Shown here piece by piece: positions 37,248-53,705 of a stretch of DNA of 64,000 nucleotides. Each line of letters opens with the position of its first letter. Positions within the stretch are counted from its first letter, which is position 1. Source of the stretch: Synergistota bacterium (lineage in GTDB: Bacteria; Synergistota; GBS-1); the NCBI GenBank assembly GCA_025060595.1, contig JANXBX010000001.1:84459-148458 (forward strand). The letters are read 5' to 3'. The notes under the pieces were generated by a model. It worked only from the letters and a program-made list of their open reading frames with translations. It made no database searches and was not told the origin of the DNA. The position numbers were made by a program, and so were the translations under genes.

Positions 37248-38321
37248 TTATATCATATATCCCTCAAGGAGAATATCTTCCCCAACCTTTCTTAAGGTAA
37301 ACTCGTTAATTTTTATTGAGGAATCTAAGGAACTAACTTCAAGCTCATCAAAAGGACCTATACCTTTACCAATTATTTTGGGAGCGATAAAATAAAGAAG
37401 CTTATCCACCAATCCCTCTCTTAAGAAAGAAGAAAAGATTTTCCTGCCCCCTTCAACCATAACGCTCGCTATACCAAGTTCTCCAAGCTTCTTTAAGACA
37501 TCCCTTAATTCGATAATTCCGTTTTCTGAAGAAACTTTATAAAGCTCTACACCAACAGCCTCAAGCTCTTTAACTTTCTCTCTTGAAGCAACCTCTGAGT
37601 AGAATATGATTTTCCTCCCAGGAGAAGTCAGAATTTTTGCGTGAGATGGAACTCTCAAATAAGTATCCAGGACCACTCTCACCGGGTTTCTCCCCTTAAC
37701 CAACCTTACAGTAAGCTCAGGATCGTCTCTTAAAACCGTTTCCACCCCTACCAAAACAGCATCATATAGGGATCTAAATTTATGAACTAACCTCCTTGAA
37801 CTTAAGGAGGTTATCCATTTCGATTCCCCTAAGGCATTAGCTATCTTACCATCAAGGCTCACTGCAATCTTCAAAATCACAAAAGGGATTCCCTTGGTTA
37901 TCCATTTAAAAAAGGCTTCGTTAAGCCTCCTTGCTTCTCTTTCAAGTACCCCAGTTACTACTTCTATGCCTGCCTTTTTAAGAAGATCCACCCCTTTCCC
38001 TGAAACGAGAGGATTAGGGTCAAGAGTGGCAATAACAACTCTTCTTATCCCCGCTTCTATTATTCTCGGAGCACAAGGAGGAGTTTTACCAAAGTGAACA
38101 CATGGCTCTAGATTAACATATAATGTAGCCCCTTTAGCTTCTCCTTTAGCGTTATCTAAAGCAACCACTTCAGCGTGAGGTCCACCATAATACTCGTGAT
38201 AACCTGTAGCTACTACCTTTCCATCTTTAACCAAAACTGCTCCTACCATAGGATTAGGGCTAACTCTTCCAGCACCCTTCAAAGCCAGCTTCAGAGCTTT
38301 TTTCATAAAATATTCATCCAA
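37248..38321 (-). CDS. ribD: Bifunctional riboflavin deaminase/reductase
   Basis: An N-terminal cytidine-deaminase-like domain with the zinc site HAEVVAL and EPCVHFGKTPPCAPRIIEAG deaminates the pyrimidine. The C-terminal reductase (about 145-357, FVILKIAVSLDGKIANALGESKWITS) reduces the ribosyl side chain. 357 residues is normal. TTG start at 38321 behind GGGGGTG. First gene of the rib operon. The region upstream to the divergent HDOD gene is only 57 bp, so there is no room for an FMN riboswitch. Confidence 0.97.
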   Translation of the reverse strand: MDEYFMKKALKLALKGAGRVSPNPMVGAVLVKDGKVVATGYHEYYGGPHAEVVALDNAKGEAKGATLYVNLEPCVHFGKTPPCAPRIIEAGIRRVVIATLDPNPLVSGKGVDLLKKAGIEVVTGVLEREARRLNEAFFKWITKGIPFVILKIAVSLDGKIANALGESKWITSLSSRRLVHKFRSLYDAVLVGVETVLRDDPELTVRLVKGRNPVRVVLDTYLRVPSHAKILTSPGRKIIFYSEVASREKVKELEAVGVELYKVSSENGIIELRDVLKKLGELGIASVMVEGGRKIFSSFLREGLVDKLLYFIAPKIIGKGIGPFDELEVSSLDSSIKINEFTLRKVGEDILLEGYMI

Positions 38322-38343: not shown

Positions 38344-38367
38344 AGTATACTATCATTATGTTATAAT
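38344..38367. promoter_or_regulatory. Divergent -10 boxes for ribD and the HDOD operon
   Basis: TATACT on the minus strand (38349-38344) would serve ribD, and TATAAT on the plus strand (38362-38367) would serve the HDOD gene. The -35 regions are poor and each overlaps the other promoter, so activator dependence or mutual exclusion is possible. The HDOD ATG lies 11 bases after its -10 box with no ribosome site, indicating a leaderless or nearly leaderless mRNA. Confidence 0.5.
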
Positions 38368-38378
38368 TATATGTTAAG

Positions 38379-39242
38379 ATGAAGGGGTTAGAATTAAAAG
38401 ATAGGATTTTATCAAAATTGAGAGACCTTCCAACCTTGCCTGAGGTAGCAGCTAAAGTTATGGAAATAGCTAATAATCCTCGATCCTCAGCAGCAGATAT
38501 GGCAAAGGTCATCTCTCAAGATCAAGCTCTTACTGCTAAAATTCTTAAGCTCGTTAACTCAGCGTACTATGGCTTCCCGAGAAAGATATCTACCATAACA
38601 CAAGCCATAGTTATACTAGGTTTTAGAACCGTAAGGGATCTTGTATTAAACATTTCTATATCTGATATGTTCAACTCGAAAAACGTTGGAGGACTTAATG
38701 CAGAAAGCTTATGGCTACATAATTTAGGGGTAGCCATAACAGCTAAGATCTTAGCTAAAAGGATAGGTTACGATCCTCCAGAAGAGGCCTTTACATGCGG
38801 TCTTCTTCATGATTTAGGAAAGCTTGTCTTTATAAAGCTCTTCCCTCAAGAATATGAAAAGGTTGCTACCATAGCAAGAGATGGAGATAAATGGATAAGG
38901 GACGTAGAGGAAGCCATCTTTGAGATAGACCACTCTGTTGTTGGCAAATGGGTAGCAGATTACTGGAAATTTCCCCACCAACTCGTTCAAGCTATACAGA
39001 TGCACCACCAACCTAACCTTGACAACGAATACCCTGAGCTAACCTCTATAATTCACGGTGCGGACATATTAACAAGAATTAAAAAGATAGGAAGCGGAGG
39101 AGATAATCAGATTCCATCCTTTAGAAAGGAGGCTTGGATGATTCTAAAACTTAAACCACAAGATCTAAATGACATATATAATGAAATAGAAAAAGATATT
39201 GAAGGAGCCCTAGCCTTCTTACATGTCTTAAGAGGAAAATAA
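38379..39242 (+). CDS. HDOD domain signalling protein
   Basis: 287 residues. The HDOD core spans about 15-215: LRDLPTLPEVAAKVMEIANN, ISQDQALTAKILKLVNSAYYG and ITQAIVILGFRTVRDLVL, then FTCGLLHDLGKLVFIK, where HD residues survive, and WKFPHQLVQAIQMHHQPN. HDOD proteins act as signalling adaptors. Here it is the first gene of an operon with a histidine kinase and a double receiver. The ATG at 38379 has no Shine-Dalgarno sequence and lies just beyond a TATAAT. The stop overlaps the kinase start. Confidence 0.92.
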   Translation: MKGLELKDRILSKLRDLPTLPEVAAKVMEIANNPRSSAADMAKVISQDQALTAKILKLVNSAYYGFPRKISTITQAIVILGFRTVRDLVLNISISDMFNSKNVGGLNAESLWLHNLGVAITAKILAKRIGYDPPEEAFTCGLLHDLGKLVFIKLFPQEYEKVATIARDGDKWIRDVEEAIFEIDHSVVGKWVADYWKFPHQLVQAIQMHHQPNLDNEYPELTSIIHGADILTRIKKIGSGGDNQIPSFRKEAWMILKLKPQDLNDIYNEIEKDIEGALAFLHVLRGK

Positions 39243-40795
39243 TGAGCATGGAAGATTTTGAGAGAAAGATTAAAGATCTGAGAGAAGCTTATGAAGAAGT
39301 AATAAGGCTCTACAGGATTACCGAAGAAGTAGGGCTTGCTCCATCTATAGAAGCTATAAAGAATCTGTTCTTAAACTACGTGACCAAACTCGCACCTTCC
39401 ATAAACGAAAAGTATCTAATCTTAGGTAGTGAAATACCAGAAAAAATTTCAGAAAAGTGGAAAATCTGGGAAGAAGAAGGATTAATAGAATGGGTCAAAA
39501 ATCGAGGAAAAACAACAATAATACCTGAGGATAATTTAACTTACGTATTAACCCCTCTTGTCGTTAGAAATAAGATCATAGGAATGTCATTAGTATCTAC
39601 ATCAGTATGTCCCGAAGGTTTTAACCAGCAGGTTTTAAACCTACTTGACACCATAGCACATCAGTGTGCCGTAGGAATAGAGAATATTCGACTTCATAAA
39701 GAGATTGACGACATTAGAAAGTTTCTCCAAGAGCTATTTGATCAACTTCCCCATGGAATTTTAGTGCTCGAAATAAACGGGAAGATTAAAAGCGCAAATA
39801 GAAAGCTACTTGAACTAATCGAGCTAAAAGACAAAGAACCTCGTGATGTATTAGGAAAGCGAGTGGAAGAAGTCCTGCCAGACATATTATCTTTAAAGAT
39901 AAGAGAAGTGCTTACGGAAACCGTGATCAAGGTTAGGGTATCAGAAGAGGAAGTTAGCTATATAGAAAACGACAGAGAGATCACGCTGGGTATAAGCTCC
40001 ACATTATTTAGACAAAATGAAGATCAAGGAATCATTCTTATAGTAAGAGACCTTTCAGAAAGCAAAGAGCTAGAAAAATTAAGGAGATTAGATAAGCTTA
40101 AAAGTGAATTTATCTCTTCGGTTAGTCATGAACTTAAAACGCCCCTTACAGCTATCAAAGGTTTTATCGAATTACTACTTGACAACCCTGAAAGCATTCC
40201 CTCAGAAACAGCTAAGGCATATCTATCTTTTATGAATGAGGAGGTTAACAACCTAACACGATTGATAAATGACCTTCTCGACTTTTCGAGACTTGAAACT
40301 AGCAAGTTATATCTTGAACTTGAAGAATTTGATATAAACGAACTAATAGAAAGAGCAGTCTCCATGTTTGAAAGAGATCTAAAGGAAAAGGAGCTGTTTA
40401 TTTATAAGGAGCTAAACGGGGATCTCCCCTTAGTAAAAGGAGACAAAGGGAAGCTTCTTCAAGTACTCATAAATTTGATAGACAACGCTATAAAATATAT
40501 AGGAAATGGGAAAAGAATATGGATAAGAGCAAACGCTGATGATGGAAAAGGCATAACTATATGTGTGGAAGATGAAGGAATAGGCATTCCTCCGGAAAGT
40601 CTGCCCTATATCTTCGATAAATTCTATAGAGTAGAAAGCGACTATACTCACAAAATAAGAGGACTTGGATTAGGCCTTTCTATAGCCAAACAAATTATAG
40701 AGGCCCATAAAGGTAAGATATGGGCTGAAAGCAAACCTGATAAGGGATCCAAGTTTTTCTTCTATCTACCAATTATAGAGAAGGAGGAAAGCTAA
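39242..40795 (+). CDS. Soluble sensor histidine kinase with GAF-like and PAS domains
   Basis: 517 residues without membrane segments. Residues 20-155 look GAF-like, 160-275 PAS-like (LPHGILVLEINGKIKSANRK). The HisKA domain has phosphoacceptor His296 in FISSVSHELKTPLTAIKG. The ATPase domain shows the N box (LINLIDNAIKYI), G1 (VEDEGIGIPPES), F box (IFDKFYRV) and G2 (GLGLGLSIAKQIIEAH). ATG overlaps the HDOD stop (TAATG). The double-receiver gene 6 bp downstream is its obvious partner. The signal is unknown but cytoplasmic. Confidence 0.94.
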   Translation: MSMEDFERKIKDLREAYEEVIRLYRITEEVGLAPSIEAIKNLFLNYVTKLAPSINEKYLILGSEIPEKISEKWKIWEEEGLIEWVKNRGKTTIIPEDNLTYVLTPLVVRNKIIGMSLVSTSVCPEGFNQQVLNLLDTIAHQCAVGIENIRLHKEIDDIRKFLQELFDQLPHGILVLEINGKIKSANRKLLELIELKDKEPRDVLGKRVEEVLPDILSLKIREVLTETVIKVRVSEEEVSYIENDREITLGISSTLFRQNEDQGIILIVRDLSESKELEKLRRLDKLKSEFISSVSHELKTPLTAIKGFIELLLDNPESIPSETAKAYLSFMNEEVNNLTRLINDLLDFSRLETSKLYLELEEFDINELIERAVSMFERDLKEKELFIYKELNGDLPLVKGDKGKLLQVLINLIDNAIKYIGNGKRIWIRANADDGKGITICVEDEGIGIPPESLPYIFDKFYRVESDYTHKIRGLGLGLSIAKQIIEAHKGKIWAESKPDKGSKFFFYLPIIEKEES

Positions 40796-40801
40796 TTTGC
40801 T

Positions 40802-41629
40802 ATGGGGACAGCAAAAGAAAAAATAATAGTTGCTGAAGATGATAGCAAAATTCAGATGGTTATTAAGGGAGCTCTTGAGAAGGAAGGATATGAAATACTT
40901 CTTGCCAAGGACGGACTTGAAGCCATAAAGCTACTTCAGGAGAATCCAGATGTTGTAAGCATTGTAACTGATATAGCCATGCCACGAATGACAGGCTTAG
41001 AATTGGTAGAGGAAATAAGGAAAAACGGTCCTAACCCGGATATCCCGATACTTATGCTCAGCGCACATCATACTAAGGAAAACATACTAAAGGCAACAGA
41101 ATTAGGAATAAATGACTTTTTAATAAAACCCTTCTCTATTAAAGATCTTGTAATAAGACTAAATAGAATGTTAGGGAAGGAAACCCCTACGCTTCCTCCC
41201 AAAAGGGAGGAAACCGCACCTCCCCCAGAGAAAACCTCCAATAATAATTTCAAGAAGAAGATTCTTGTAGTTGATGACTCTACAATAATTCTAAAAATTA
41301 TAGAAAGCACTTTAACAAATGCTGGTTTCCACGTAATAACGAGTGATAATGGGAAGCAAGCTCTTCTTAAAGCAAAAACGGAAAAACCTGATCTTATTCT
41401 TACAGACATAATGATGCCTGAAATGGATGGTCTAACACTATGCGAAGAAATAAGAAAAGACCCTTACACCCAAAGAATACCTATAATTATAGTATCTGCT
41501 AAAGGACAAAAGAAAGACGTACTCGAAGCCTTAAAAAGAGGAGCTAACGGATACATAGTAAAACCTTTCAGTTCGAAAGACCTCATTCTTCGCGTAAAAA
41601 ACATCCTTGGATTGAGCCAGACTACTTAA
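40802..41629 (+). CDS. Double-receiver response regulator without output domain
   Basis: 275 residues made of two CheY-like receivers: residues 1-125 (phosphoacceptor Asp in SIVTDIAMPRMTGLELV, switch Lys in FLIKPFSI) and 155-275 (LILTDIMMPEMDGLTLCEE, YIVKPFSSKD). A Pro/Glu-rich linker (PTLPPKREETAPPPEKTSNN) joins them. No DNA-binding or enzymatic output domain follows, so signalling probably works by protein contact, perhaps with the HDOD protein or chemotaxis machinery. Its end overlaps the convergent CBS-ACT gene by 8 bp. Confidence 0.93.
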   Translation: MGTAKEKIIVAEDDSKIQMVIKGALEKEGYEILLAKDGLEAIKLLQENPDVVSIVTDIAMPRMTGLELVEEIRKNGPNPDIPILMLSAHHTKENILKATELGINDFLIKPFSIKDLVIRLNRMLGKETPTLPPKREETAPPPEKTSNNNFKKKILVVDDSTIILKIIESTLTNAGFHVITSDNGKQALLKAKTEKPDLILTDIMMPEMDGLTLCEEIRKDPYTQRIPIIIVSAKGQKKDVLEALKRGANGYIVKPFSSKDLILRVKNILGLSQTT

Positions 41630-44638: not shown

Positions 44639-45871
44639 TTAAGCACTAACTATCCTCTTTGCCTTCCCAGCCGTCCTCTCAATACTTCCGGGAGGAAGTA
44701 TAACTAAATCTACACTTATACCAAGTTTATCTTTTAGAGCCTTAGAGACTCTTGCTGTAAGCTCATTTATATCACCTTTAAAGCCGTTAGCAAATTCACA
44801 TCTTACCTCAAGCCTTTTAAGATGTTTTCTTTCACCAACCACAAGCTGGTAGTTTAAACTAAGCTCACTAAAGCTTCCCAAAACAGACTCTACTTGCTTT
44901 GGAAACACATTAACACCACGAATTATAAGCATATCATCGCTTCTTCCCTTTATCCTATCTATCCTATAGCCATGAACACCACAAGGACAATCCCCATTTA
45001 CAAGCCTAGTTACATCCCTGGTTCTATATCTTATCATCGGTGTTGCTTCCCTGTTCAAAGTGGTCAGAACAAGCTCCCCCTCTTTACCAAACGGTAGAGG
45101 CTTTAAAGTTTCGGGGTCTATTATCTCAACAATAAAGTATTCATCATTTATATGAAGACCGTTCTTATAGGGGCACTCCATAGCCACACCAGGTCCCCAT
45201 ATCTCACTCAACCCATATATATCTAAAGCTTTCATTCCCAAGCCCTTTTCTATTTGAGACCTCATCTCCTCACTCCAAGGCTCGGCTCCTAATATTCCTA
45301 AGCGAAGTTTAAGCTCACTAGGAGATATCCCCTTTTCGATCAAAACTTCAGCAAGATAAAGAGCATAACTAGGAGTACAAGCCAAAACCGTAGTTCCAAG
45401 ATCCCTCATTAGTTCTATTTGCCTTTCAGTGTTACCACCAGATACAGGAATTACACAGCAACCAAGCTTCTCAGCTCCATAATGAAGCCCCAAACCACCG
45501 GTAAAAAGCCCATAACCATAAGCAACCTGAACTGTGTCATTCTCCGTCACCCCAGCAATTTTAAGACACCAAGCAACAAGATTAGCCCATTTTTCAATGT
45601 CCCCTTTAGTATAACTAACCACTGTAGGCTTCCCTGTAGTCCCTGAAGAGCAGTGAACTCTAACTACATCTTTCAAATCCGAAGCGGTAGCACCCCAAGG
45701 ATATCCCTTTCTAAGATCATCCTTAATCATAAACGGCAAATACTGAATATCCTCAAAGCTTCTCACATCTTCAGGCTTAATACCAATCTCATCCATCCTT
45801 TCCCTATACCAAGGATATCTCTCATAAGCTCTTCTCAAGCTCCCCCTTAAAGCTAGTAACCTCTTATCCAT
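44639..45871 (-). CDS. paaK: Phenylacetate-CoA ligase (aryl-acid CoA ligase, PaaK family)
   Basis: An AMP-forming ligase of about 410 residues that activates phenylacetate or related aryl acids to CoA thioesters. Motifs are VRVHCSSGTTGKPTVVSYT (P-loop), VAYGYGLFTGGLGLHYGAE, DIYGLSEIWGPGVAMEC and the C-terminal RIKGRSDDMLIIRGVNVFPKQVE. Anaerobes and archaea use such ligases with indolepyruvate:ferredoxin oxidoreductase, in either direction. ATG 45871 is 5 bases after GGAGGTG; GTG 45874 is less likely. A terminator hairpin and aromatic-rich leader ORF lie between its promoter and start, suggesting control by aromatic amino acid supply. Confidence 0.92.
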   Translation of the reverse strand: MDKRLLALRGSLRRAYERYPWYRERMDEIGIKPEDVRSFEDIQYLPFMIKDDLRKGYPWGATASDLKDVVRVHCSSGTTGKPTVVSYTKGDIEKWANLVAWCLKIAGVTENDTVQVAYGYGLFTGGLGLHYGAEKLGCCVIPVSGGNTERQIELMRDLGTTVLACTPSYALYLAEVLIEKGISPSELKLRLGILGAEPWSEEMRSQIEKGLGMKALDIYGLSEIWGPGVAMECPYKNGLHINDEYFIVEIIDPETLKPLPFGKEGELVLTTLNREATPMIRYRTRDVTRLVNGDCPCGVHGYRIDRIKGRSDDMLIIRGVNVFPKQVESVLGSFSELSLNYQLVVGERKHLKRLEVRCEFANGFKGDINELTARVSKALKDKLGISVDLVILPPGSIERTAGKAKRIVSA

Positions 45872-45904
45872 CACTACACCTCCCTAAAAATAAGGATAAA
45901 AATA

Positions 45905-45944
45905 AAGGCCGGAGGCTCCATTTTAAAATGGAGCCTCCGGCCTT
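45905..45944 (-). terminator. Attenuator terminator hairpin before paaK
   Basis: A perfect 20-bp inverted repeat with arms AAGGCCGGAGGCTCCATTTT and its complement. On the minus strand the stem is followed by TTTATTTTTA. It lies between the promoter at 46084-46056 and the paaK start at 45871, so any transcript from that promoter must pass it. In practice the AT centre forms the loop. Confidence 0.88.
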
Positions 45945-45991
45945 ACTCAGCCAAAACCCTGGCTTTACCCCACAGGGCTCAAACCGGAGAC
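45933..45991 (-). promoter_or_regulatory. Predicted antiterminator pairing in the paaK leader
   Basis: Segment GTCTCCGGTT (45991-45982), which is codons 18-21 of the leader peptide, can pair over 10 positions (seven Watson-Crick, three G-U) with GGCCGGAGGC (45942-45933) in the 5' arm of the terminator. The two pairings exclude each other. Between them, CCCTG/CAGGG (45957-45961 with 45973-45977) and AGCCA/TGGCT (45949-45953 with 45960-45964) are further competing stems. Confidence 0.6.
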
Positions 45992-46044
45992 CCTAAACAT
46001 CTAAAGTAGAAGACAAACAGATAAACAACATAATGTTGCCTCAT
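45979..46044 (-). CDS. Aromatic-rich leader peptide of the paaK attenuator
   Basis: A 21-codon ORF from ATG 46044 to TGA 45979. Residues 5-14 are YVVYLFVFYF, six aromatic residues in ten (three Tyr, three Phe); no Trp codon is present. The stop codon lies just past the antiterminator strand (codons 18-21), so a ribosome finishing the peptide would cover it, while one stalled at codons 5-14 would leave it free. There is no ribosome site: the ATG is 11 bases beyond the -10 box, implying a leaderless start. This is the design of Phe/Tyr attenuators such as the pheA leader, although the sequence is unrelated. Confidence 0.65.
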   Translation of the reverse strand: MRQHYVVYLFVFYFRCLGSPV

Positions 46045-46055
46045 CTTGATTCTAA

Positions 46056-46084
46056 AGTATATCATTCCAACAAAACCTAGTCAA
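46056..46084 (-). promoter_or_regulatory. Promoter of the paaK leader transcript
   Basis: TTGACT (46084-46079), 17 bp, TATACT (46061-46056) with TG one base upstream of the -10 (extended -10). The start point is predicted near 46050, giving a leader of about 180 bases before paaK. Confidence 0.85.
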
Positions 46085-52349: not shown

Positions 52350-52967
52350 CTATAATTTATCCTTTCCTTCTTTCATCTTTTTAAGTATCTCCCACTCTGG
52401 ATCCTTCCACAGAAAACCAATCTCTGGAAGAAGAGAACCTATATATTTACTTGAAGCTTTAGAATAATCCTTAACCTCCCTATCCTTGACCTCGTGGAAA
52501 ACAAGTTGAGCAATTCTTGTACCAGGATAAAGATAGAGAGGAGCTATCCCAAGGTTAGCAAGCTCAAGGGTTATTACTCCCCTGTAGCCAGGGGAAACAA
52601 CAGTAGCTGTTGCTACCACAAGGCCAAGCCTTCCCCATGAAGACCTCCCTTCAACATAAGCCATATATTTTTCACTTAAAGCCACATATTCAAGGGTGCT
52701 TGATAGAGCAAAATCTCCCGGATGAAGAACAAATGCCTGCCCCGGCTCTAAAAATATTCTTTCTCCAACCATGGGAAGAAAAGGAGCATCCCCACTTAAT
52801 GGATCGAATGCTCCCATGACTCTCTTCCTGAAGAGAATAAAATCAAGGCCAAGCCTTACATCTAGGCTCCCCTTACCGATCTGAACAGCAGGATCCAAAA
52901 GAGGTATGATCTTTATTTCACCACTTTCTATCGCCCTCAATATCTCCTGAGAAGGTATCACTCCCAT
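52350..52967 (-). CDS. dcd: dCTP deaminase
   Basis: Converts dCTP to dUTP (or directly to dUMP in some lineages). 205 residues. The trimeric dUTPase-like fold shows GSLDVRLGLDFILF, VLHPGDFALSSTLEYVALS and YVEGRSSWGRLGLVVATATVV, with SPGYRGVITLELANLG as the nucleotide-binding hairpin. The ATG lies 50 bp inside the 3' end of the upstream unknown gene, an unusually long overlap. Mono- versus bifunctional type cannot be told by eye. Confidence 0.93.
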   Translation of the reverse strand: MGVIPSQEILRAIESGEIKIIPLLDPAVQIGKGSLDVRLGLDFILFRKRVMGAFDPLSGDAPFLPMVGERIFLEPGQAFVLHPGDFALSSTLEYVALSEKYMAYVEGRSSWGRLGLVVATATVVSPGYRGVITLELANLGIAPLYLYPGTRIAQLVFHEVKDREVKDYSKASSKYIGSLLPEIGFLWKDPEWEILKKMKEGKDKL

Positions 52968-53676
52968 GCTTAAACTTATACCACTCCTTTCTAAACGCTC
53001 TCAGCTTTAAAGCAGTCATAAGAAGTTCACTAATATTTCTCCTATCTGTTCCCTCTTTAATTAAAATCCAACCAGCGTTAAAAAGCTCAGGAAGAGAGCA
53101 ATCTATAGGAGGAAGAGAGTCTTTGAGCTGATTGATTGCAAAGCTTATATTCTCCATCACAGGGTTATCTATATCTTTATAGAACTTCAATCTAGACTCC
53201 CCTTTAGGAAACAAAACCTCTCCTAAAGCAAACTTATAAGCTTCTCCATATCTTTTTATAGCCATCTTATCAGAGGAAGGAATGTCCAATCCAATCCATC
53301 TCAAATATAAACCATAAAGATATGGATAAAGAAGAGGCTCCTCCAGGAAAAACTCCGGAAGCAGAAGGAGAAAGAAGTCTTTCATAGGATAATAAGTGGG
53401 AAACCAACCATCATAAGTGGAAACTATAGGTTTGATACCGCTTTCCTCTTCCAGGTAGGCCTTTAGAGCCCAGGGTATATCCATCCGAGAACTTCTTAAG
53501 AGGTATCTAAAAAGACGTTCAAGAAAAAGTAAATCTTTCTCATTAGGTTTAAGAGAAAGTCTCCCTTTCAGGAATTCCAAAACCTTTAAAACCTGAGGAG
53601 ATATAGAAGGAAGACTCTCAAAGCTTTCTATTTCAAGCCTGAGGCGCTCTATTCTATAAGACATTATTTCTATCAT
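52918..53676 (-). CDS. Protein of unknown function, likely leaderless mRNA
   Basis: About 252 residues from ATG 53676 (or ATG 53664). I recognise no family. It is mostly helical, with an acidic and aromatic middle (GWFPTYYPMKDFFLLLLPEFFLEEPLLYPYLYGLYLRW region, positions about 95-135) that could be a membrane-associated or helical-repeat surface. A TATAAT box at 53691-53686 is only 9 bases before the ATG and no ribosome site exists, so translation is probably leaderless. A longer reading to 53745 runs through the promoter and tRNA terminator. Its last 50 bp overlap dcd. Confidence 0.7.
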   Translation of the reverse strand: MIEIMSYRIERLRLEIESFESLPSISPQVLKVLEFLKGRLSLKPNEKDLLFLERLFRYLLRSSRMDIPWALKAYLEEESGIKPIVSTYDGWFPTYYPMKDFFLLLLPEFFLEEPLLYPYLYGLYLRWIGLDIPSSDKMAIKRYGEAYKFALGEVLFPKGESRLKFYKDIDNPVMENISFAINQLKDSLPPIDCSLPELFNAGWILIKEGTDRRNISELLMTALKLRAFRKEWYKFKHGSDTFSGDIEGDRKW

Positions 53677-53685
53677 CTTGTATTT

Positions 53686-53691
53686 ATTATA
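53686..53691 (-). promoter_or_regulatory. -10 box for the dcd-panC gene run
   Basis: TATAAT on the minus strand, 9 bases before ATG 53676. The -35 region is poor (TTCTCC at the expected place, inside the tRNA-Ala terminator). All genes from here to panC point the same way with small gaps or overlaps. Confidence 0.5.
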
Positions 53692-53705
53692 ACATAAAAA
53701 AATAA

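Follow-up and report, generated by a model that had tools for sequence, protein, structure and literature searches.

Putative near-leaderless genes behind extended -10 promoters in a family of Synergistota

Background

Leaderless starting is known from other bacteria. According to the main text of Zheng et al. (2011), TA-led genes lack a Shine-Dalgarno (SD) sequence and have a box resembling TATAAT some 12 bases upstream of the start codon; the RNA starts 8 to 14 bases after the second position of this box, and in several low-GC genomes the box is preceded by TG, which is said to replace the -35 element (PMC3160421). In Deinococcus-Thermus, a -10 box about 6-7 bases before the open reading frame is described as common and as conserved in homologues (PMC12340547), and the bidirectional promoters of Escherichia coli are described as pseudo-symmetric sequences between divergent genes (PMC12825309). 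The term 'Synergist' is absent from the main text of PMC3160421. In our literature search, no description of leaderless genes was found for the lineage studied here; what is new in the present study is the members in this family, and comparative evidence for leaderless genes in the lineage is added. Mycobacteria reportedly use leaderless short open reading frames for polycysteine peptides, which respond to amino acids and attenuate operonic genes, as the title of a 2020 report by Canestrari et al. has it.

We analyzed a stretch of 64,000 nucleotides from a Synergistota bacterium (contig JANXBX010000001.1; hereafter, the window). A first-pass annotation had singled out three sites, the HDOD signalling operon, the gene at 53676 and a leader peptide before paaK, as leaderless genes with TATAAT shortly before an AAG-ATG start, and had suggested that they may be differently regulated. 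This observation was confirmed in part, and its interpretation was partly supported. We consider it likely that extended -10 promoters near the start codon drive the HDOD operon as well as the gene at 53676, and that the near-leaderless mRNAs of these genes belong to a small class in this family.

For comparison, three genomes of the same family (G001, G002 and G003) and one of another family in the phylum (G005) were used together with the own genome (G000). From the latter, a sample of 841 kb, with 763 called genes of which 152 lack an SD-like match of at least 4 bases, replaced a first pass over 464 kb of this genome and 400 kb of G003.

Results

The HDOD operon and the facing ribD gene have the following features.

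38359..38367, + strand: extended -10 box TGTTATAAT of the HDOD operon, overlapping an opposite-strand TATAAT (38371-38366) aimed at ribD
38368..38378, + strand: 11-base spacer between box and ATG, with TTAAG at its 3' end; predicted place of the RNA start
38379..39242, + strand: HDOD gene, ATG without SD (PF08668, E 2.2e-70)
39242..40795, + strand: PAS-histidine kinase, its start sharing one base with the HDOD stop
40802..41629, + strand: response regulator with two receiver stretches, 3' of the kinase
37248..38321, - strand: ribD, divergent from HDOD (kept so in relatives), the rival owner of the symmetric -10 box

The arrangement reported earlier is present: TATAAT at 38362-38367 is followed by 11 bases, ending in AAG, and by the ATG at 38379, and the SD score is 0, as at the other two starting sites. 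In the own genome, a TG lies one base 5' of this TATAAT, and a simple scan of the + strand gave no passing -35 element for HDOD. The ATG can be taken as sound, since the PF08668 match starts at residue 17 and the first residues (MKGLELKDRILSKLRDLPTLPEV) are alike in G001 (MGGLSLKNKILTKVKDLPTLPEV), G003 (MRGLEIKDKILSKLIDLPTLPEV) and, after its ATG, G002 (ERFKLKETILSKLRDLPTLPDV). The distance from TATAAT to ATG is 11 bases in G000 and G001, 9 in G003 and 39 in G002. The upstream sequences read TATAATTATATGTTAAG-ATG in G001 and TATAATCATTTTAAG-ATG in G003, both lacking the TG before the box. The 39 bases in G002 contain GGGAGG, an SD, and make a longer leader; the near-leaderless layout is thus found in three of the four family genomes, and the exception keeps the box. 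Just 3' of the ATG, the near-leaderless HDOD genes have a purine-rich, SD-like stretch (AAGGGG, GGGAGG or AGAGG; 38379-38395 in the window, and relatives); in G002, where HDOD is leadered, the SD stands 5' of the ATG instead.

The second site lies on the opposite strand.

53686..53694, - strand: extended -10 box TGTTATAAT, directly 3' of a hairpin with T run located behind tRNA-Ala
52918..53676, - strand: 252-aa gene of a family without match, SD-less, with 9 bases between box and ATG

Here too the description stands, with TATAAT at 53691-53686 (- strand), 9 bases, AAG and an ATG without SD. The gene caller used in this study placed the start 69 bases further upstream, and it misplaced the start of a histidine kinase (L153) as well, which shows that start calling tuned to SD sequences can err. 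The protein had no match in Pfam and NCBIfam at E 0.001. The layout is kept in all three family genomes that have the gene, as TATAAT-N7-ATG in G003 and TGCTATAAT-N9-ATG in G002, and a homologue search gave no match in G001. In each of the three, tRNA-Ala is upstream; among 61 phylum genomes searched, the own included, the protein was found in 3, always behind tRNA-Ala(GGC).

Besides these two genes and the leader of the first paaK paralogue (paaK1, see below), five further genes have the layout in other genera. The spacing is 6, 6, 7 and 6 bases for a DUF362 gene (L140:16383) in G000, G001, G003 and G002 (4/4), and 7 bases in each of G000, G002 and G003 for L141:10779 (3/3). A histidine kinase starting with GTG (L153:8290) has 10 and 8 bases, and a cation efflux gene (L192:3026) 6 and 7 bases, in the own genome and G003, respectively (2/2 each). 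The NAGPA gene (L188:1335) has 7 bases in both G000 and G003 and keeps the layout in two of the three genomes with its N-terminus, which the G001 gene lacks; G002 has a leader with AAAGGGGG before TTG. At both HDOD and NAGPA, what seems to be the same box is followed by a longer leader in G002. For a T2SSK-like gene (L144:3604), no family orthologue with the N-terminus was found.

Two other loci may be mentioned. The near-leaderless candidates at L144:3540-3603 and L144:16390-16451 are 13 kb apart and have TTGACAAGGGG-N4-GCTTAAAA in common upstream of TGATATAAT; the TTGACA of this pair is too distant from the -10 box for a normal spacer. At L140:16308-16383, the DUF362 gene and a short-chain dehydrogenase gene form a divergent pair with 74 bases between them, each with a -10 box 6-8 bases before its ATG.

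The candidate list from which such cases were taken is loose, and several of its failures are clearly internal codons. In the own genome, 18 of 40 candidates had a match and 12 were readable; 4 of these keep the layout, 1 (L134:8513) lies inside conserved coding sequence and 7 do not keep it. In G003, the corresponding numbers were 16 of 23 with a match and 13 readable, of which 4 keep the layout, 1 is inside coding sequence and 8 do not keep it. Plausible starts that failed are L149:2361 (ABC1, compared with G002) and L192:8778. Outside the family, four homologues in G005 were inspected by eye, and none had a box adjoining its start codon.

Orthologue pairs were tested for a shared signature. 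The signature in this test (a full TATAAT, or five of its six bases plus TG, at a distance of 5-12 bases from an ATG or GTG that lacks an SD) was fixed only after candidates were known. Among 226 reciprocal best pairs between G000 and G003, it occurred in 6 and 8 genes, in 5 pairs in both at aligned starts (Fisher, 7e-8). Removal of L134/L172, which lies inside conserved coding sequence, leaves 4 common cases, with 5 and 7 genes carrying the signature singly (p = 1.6e-6), and removal of HDOD and the gene at 53676 as well leaves 2, with 3 and 5 carrying it singly, among 224 pairs (p = 0.0012).

In the own sample, 7 of the 152 genes without SD and none of the 611 with SD have TATAAT at a distance of 5-12 bases from the start codon; in G003, the counts are 4 of 93 and 0 of 456, respectively. 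The zeros are partly forced, since the SD occupies that space. The pattern TATAAT-N9..11-ATG is in excess in the window (8 against 2.9 +- 1.5 in shuffled sequence), but six of the eight are at other places. With TG included, the 841 kb contain 22 cases of TGnTATAAT-N5..11-ATG against 4.9 +- 2.4 in shuffled sequence (10 in the highest of 40 shuffles); only nine of them coincide with a possible start codon of an open reading frame longer than 100 aa, and one of these nine frames is uncalled. In a crude control with the reversed pattern in 61 phylum genomes, TATAAT-N5..11-ATG was in excess in many genomes and not in all (302 against 176 in the own genome, 106 against 115 in G012). Among hexamers of the same composition, the counts were 7 for TATAAT, 5 for TTATAA and 1.7 on average for the 19 others, a weakly informative control because TTATAA overlaps TTATAAT. 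The former statement that nearly all other genes have strong GGAGG sites went too far: of 61 window genes, 43 have an SD-like match of at least 5 bases, 49 one of at least 4, and 12 none.

The box-to-start spacing is 9-11 bases at the three starting sites and 6-10 at the others. From the distance rule given in the main text of PMC3160421, we infer that the RNA should have a leader of about 2-8 nt at the 11-base sites and 0-6 nt at the 9-base site. For the three starting sites, 'near-leaderless' is hence the safer term; a spacing of six or seven bases agrees with an RNA that begins at the ATG itself. Among 15 listed promoters of G000 and G003, the TG is present in 13 and a -35 element matching at least 5 of 6 bases in 3, where TG had counted in the ranking of some of the 15.

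The third starting site belongs to a putative attenuator.

46056..46084, - strand: promoter of the paaK leader, with TTGACT (46084-46079), 17 bases, TATACT (46061-46056) and TG before the box
45979..46044, - strand: leader peptide MRQHYVVYLFVFYFRCLGSPV, ATG at 46044, 11 bases after the box
45984..45993, - strand: GGGTCTCCGG, 5' arm of the antiterminator, identical in all four paaK leaders
45907..45942, - strand: terminator hairpin 5' of paaK, followed by a T run
44639..45871, - strand: paaK-like phenylacetate-CoA ligase (best model TIGR02155, 508.8 bits, below the cut-off of 646.3)

The 11 bases, the AAG and the ATG at 46044 are as claimed before, but the box reads TATACT and not TATAAT. The same layout, TTGACT-N17-TATACT-N11-ATG with AAG before the ATG, precedes the peptide MKVSMNLCVFRFYFSWKGSPA in G003 and is thus kept in both readable genomes; the G002 contig breaks off 35 bases short of paaK, and a homologue search found no paaK1 in G001. 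Short open reading frames precede paaK1 and its paralogue paaK2 in both G000 and G003 (MRQHYVVYLFVFYFRCLGSPV, MKVSMNLCVFRFYFSWKGSPA, MRKLKMCYYVYYYSFIGSPALRPP and MKEIICVYSFVYYYYKE). The four leaders occur at 45895-46084 (- strand) in the window, L199, L183 and L208, in two paralogues and two genera. Their ATGs follow the -10 box after 11, 11, 14 and 11 bases, TTGACT or TTGACA lies 17-18 bases above the box, and all four peptides have runs of Phe and Tyr codons. The antiterminator can form between GGGTCTCCGG and CCGG(A/G)GGCTC, a sequence otherwise engaged in the terminator. All four leaders fold both ways, depending on the part of the RNA given, with -31.2 to -37.3 kcal/mol for the antiterminator. 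The leader peptides and interchangeable hairpins before the two paralogues are probably attenuators.

By eye, no such leader was seen before the third paaK homologue (G000 C2, G003 C3) or before G002 C50. A scan for near-leaderless short open reading frames before terminators returned three in the own sample, two of which are the paaK leaders, and none in G003; as it missed both paaK leaders there, the scan is not exhaustive. At the gathering score, Rfam matched only the four tRNAs in the whole window.

Discussion

The layout is real, is kept across the family and belongs to a kind already known. Its conservation across genera supports leaderless or near-leaderless mRNA at these genes, a reading which, for sequence comparison, is well supported. 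In the mechanism we propose, the HDOD operon and the gene at 53676 would be transcribed from TGnTATAAT promoters without a good -35 element, and the RNA would begin 0 to about 8 bases before the start codon. Since a near-leaderless mRNA has no room for an SD, ribosomes would start at or next to the 5' end, as on known leaderless mRNAs. We estimate that the class comprises 1-2% of the genes in this bacterial family.

There was no sign of the different regulation that had been suggested. Leadered genes in the window, and one tRNA gene, likewise have TGnTATAAT upstream; the layout therefore looks like an ordinary promoter placed close to its gene. The genes with the layout are the HDOD operon, the histidine kinase, the DUF362 and short-chain dehydrogenase genes, PAP2, the T2SSK-like gene, V-ATPase I subunit, NAGPA, cation efflux, an ABC1 kinase and two without family. 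As no common theme or function is evident among them, a dedicated regulon was rejected.

One alternative is that the HDOD box is the -10 element of the divergent ribD, and that HDOD is transcribed from inside ribD with an ordinary leader lacking an SD. In each of the four family genomes, overlapping TATAAT sequences occupy the two strands between the genes, and ribD is divergent from HDOD in G000 as well as in G001, G002 and G003 (70-72% identity); an SD-like GGGGG or GGAGG precedes ribD, as seen by eye. Against this, three genomes also keep TATAAT at 9-11 bases from the ATG of HDOD, the + strand box has TG in the own genome, and an SD near HDOD is missing in those three genomes and present in G002, where the ATG is 39 bases off. 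We regard this explanation as unlikely. Our confidence is lower for HDOD taken alone, because a symmetric box could be one retained for ribD; it is possibly a bidirectional promoter that would serve both genes. More generally, the boxes could be chance TATAAT sequences in AT-rich spacers, with SD-less initiation through S1, coupling or an unstructured leader. Shuffled window sequence does yield 2.9 cases of TATAAT-N9..11-ATG, and coupling is possible for L141:10779 and L192:3026, each of which follows a gene of its own strand after 13-14 bases. Against this, the boxes occur jointly at orthologous starts and the L141 box is kept in G002 despite a different upstream sequence, so that chance seems very improbable.

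The AAG before the ATG had been noted as a shared pattern, and all three starting sites do read AAGATG. Some figures are in favor of a separately regulated subset with this mark: AAG precedes 4 of 12 leaderless ATGs in a hand-made list from the own genome against 42 of 498 ATG starts (p = 0.014), TATAAT-N6..8-AAG-ATG occurs 5 times in the 841 kb (3 at gene starts) against 1.0 +- 1.0 in shuffled sequence (at most 4), and TATAAT-N5..15-AAGATG occurs 26 times in the whole own genome against 5 for the reversed pattern. By eye, AAG is found in 6 of 21 leaderless alleles over eight conserved cases; it is kept at HDOD (3/3) and the paaK1 leader (2/2), whereas the gene at 53676 has it in 1 of 3 alleles, without it in G002 and G003, and the other five cases in 0 of 13. 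AAG also occurs before SD-led ATG starts (31/379 against 11/119 non-SD ATG starts in the own sample, 29/301 against 6/67 in G003), where it is the first or second commonest triplet, and AAGATG alone is in excess across the window (84 against 49.2). Because 8-10% of SD-led ATGs have it, AAG-ATG was rejected as a mark of the leaderless class, and a separately regulated AAG subset is hardly credible. AAG is merely what precedes some of these ATGs, with a weak enrichment remaining at the leaderless ones.

Returning to near-leaderless mRNA as the preferred reading, HDOD and NAGPA form natural pairs, near-leaderless in two or three genomes and, in G002, leadered with an SD behind seemingly the same -10 box. 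Such pairs make the evolution of leaderless starts testable.

For the paaK leaders, a more specific function can be put forward tentatively, with slightly more doubt than belief on our part. Each near-leaderless leader peptide, Phe/Tyr-rich for paaK1 and Tyr-rich for paaK2, would control one paaK by reading the supply of charged tRNA and switching between antiterminator and terminator. The ligases would rebuild Phe and Tyr from aryl acids via indolepyruvate oxidoreductase in shortage, and the leaderless start would load the ribosome as the RNA emerges. That the leaders sense these two amino acids, and that PaaK acts anabolically, are proposals. There is an aryl-acid route to Phe and Tyr via phenylacetate-CoA ligase and indolepyruvate oxidoreductase. 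The alpha subunit of the latter is present, but prephenate dehydratase occurs too, and the three window genes searched downstream of paaK code for PhoU-like, MuiA-like and CBS-domain proteins. Literature searches found neither this route nor a report combining phenylacetate-CoA ligase with a leader peptide and attenuation.

The leaderless short open reading frames suggested by the title of Canestrari et al. resemble the paaK leaders, which here combine Phe/Tyr codons with a terminator and antiterminator before paaK. The gap between ribD and HDOD, with -10 boxes on both strands, is like the bidirectional promoters described for E. coli, here from sequence only (PMC12825309). As in the account of Deinococcus-Thermus, a conserved -10 box lies beside the open reading frame; in the present family, in contrast, the arrangement is rare, its spacing is 6-11 bases, and it is known from sequence (PMC12340547). 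The TA-led genes, as presented in the main text of Zheng et al., are like those found here in the box near the start, the lack of SD and the TG before the box, and their share is 18.9% in Streptomyces coelicolor against the 1-2% estimated for this family (PMC3160421).
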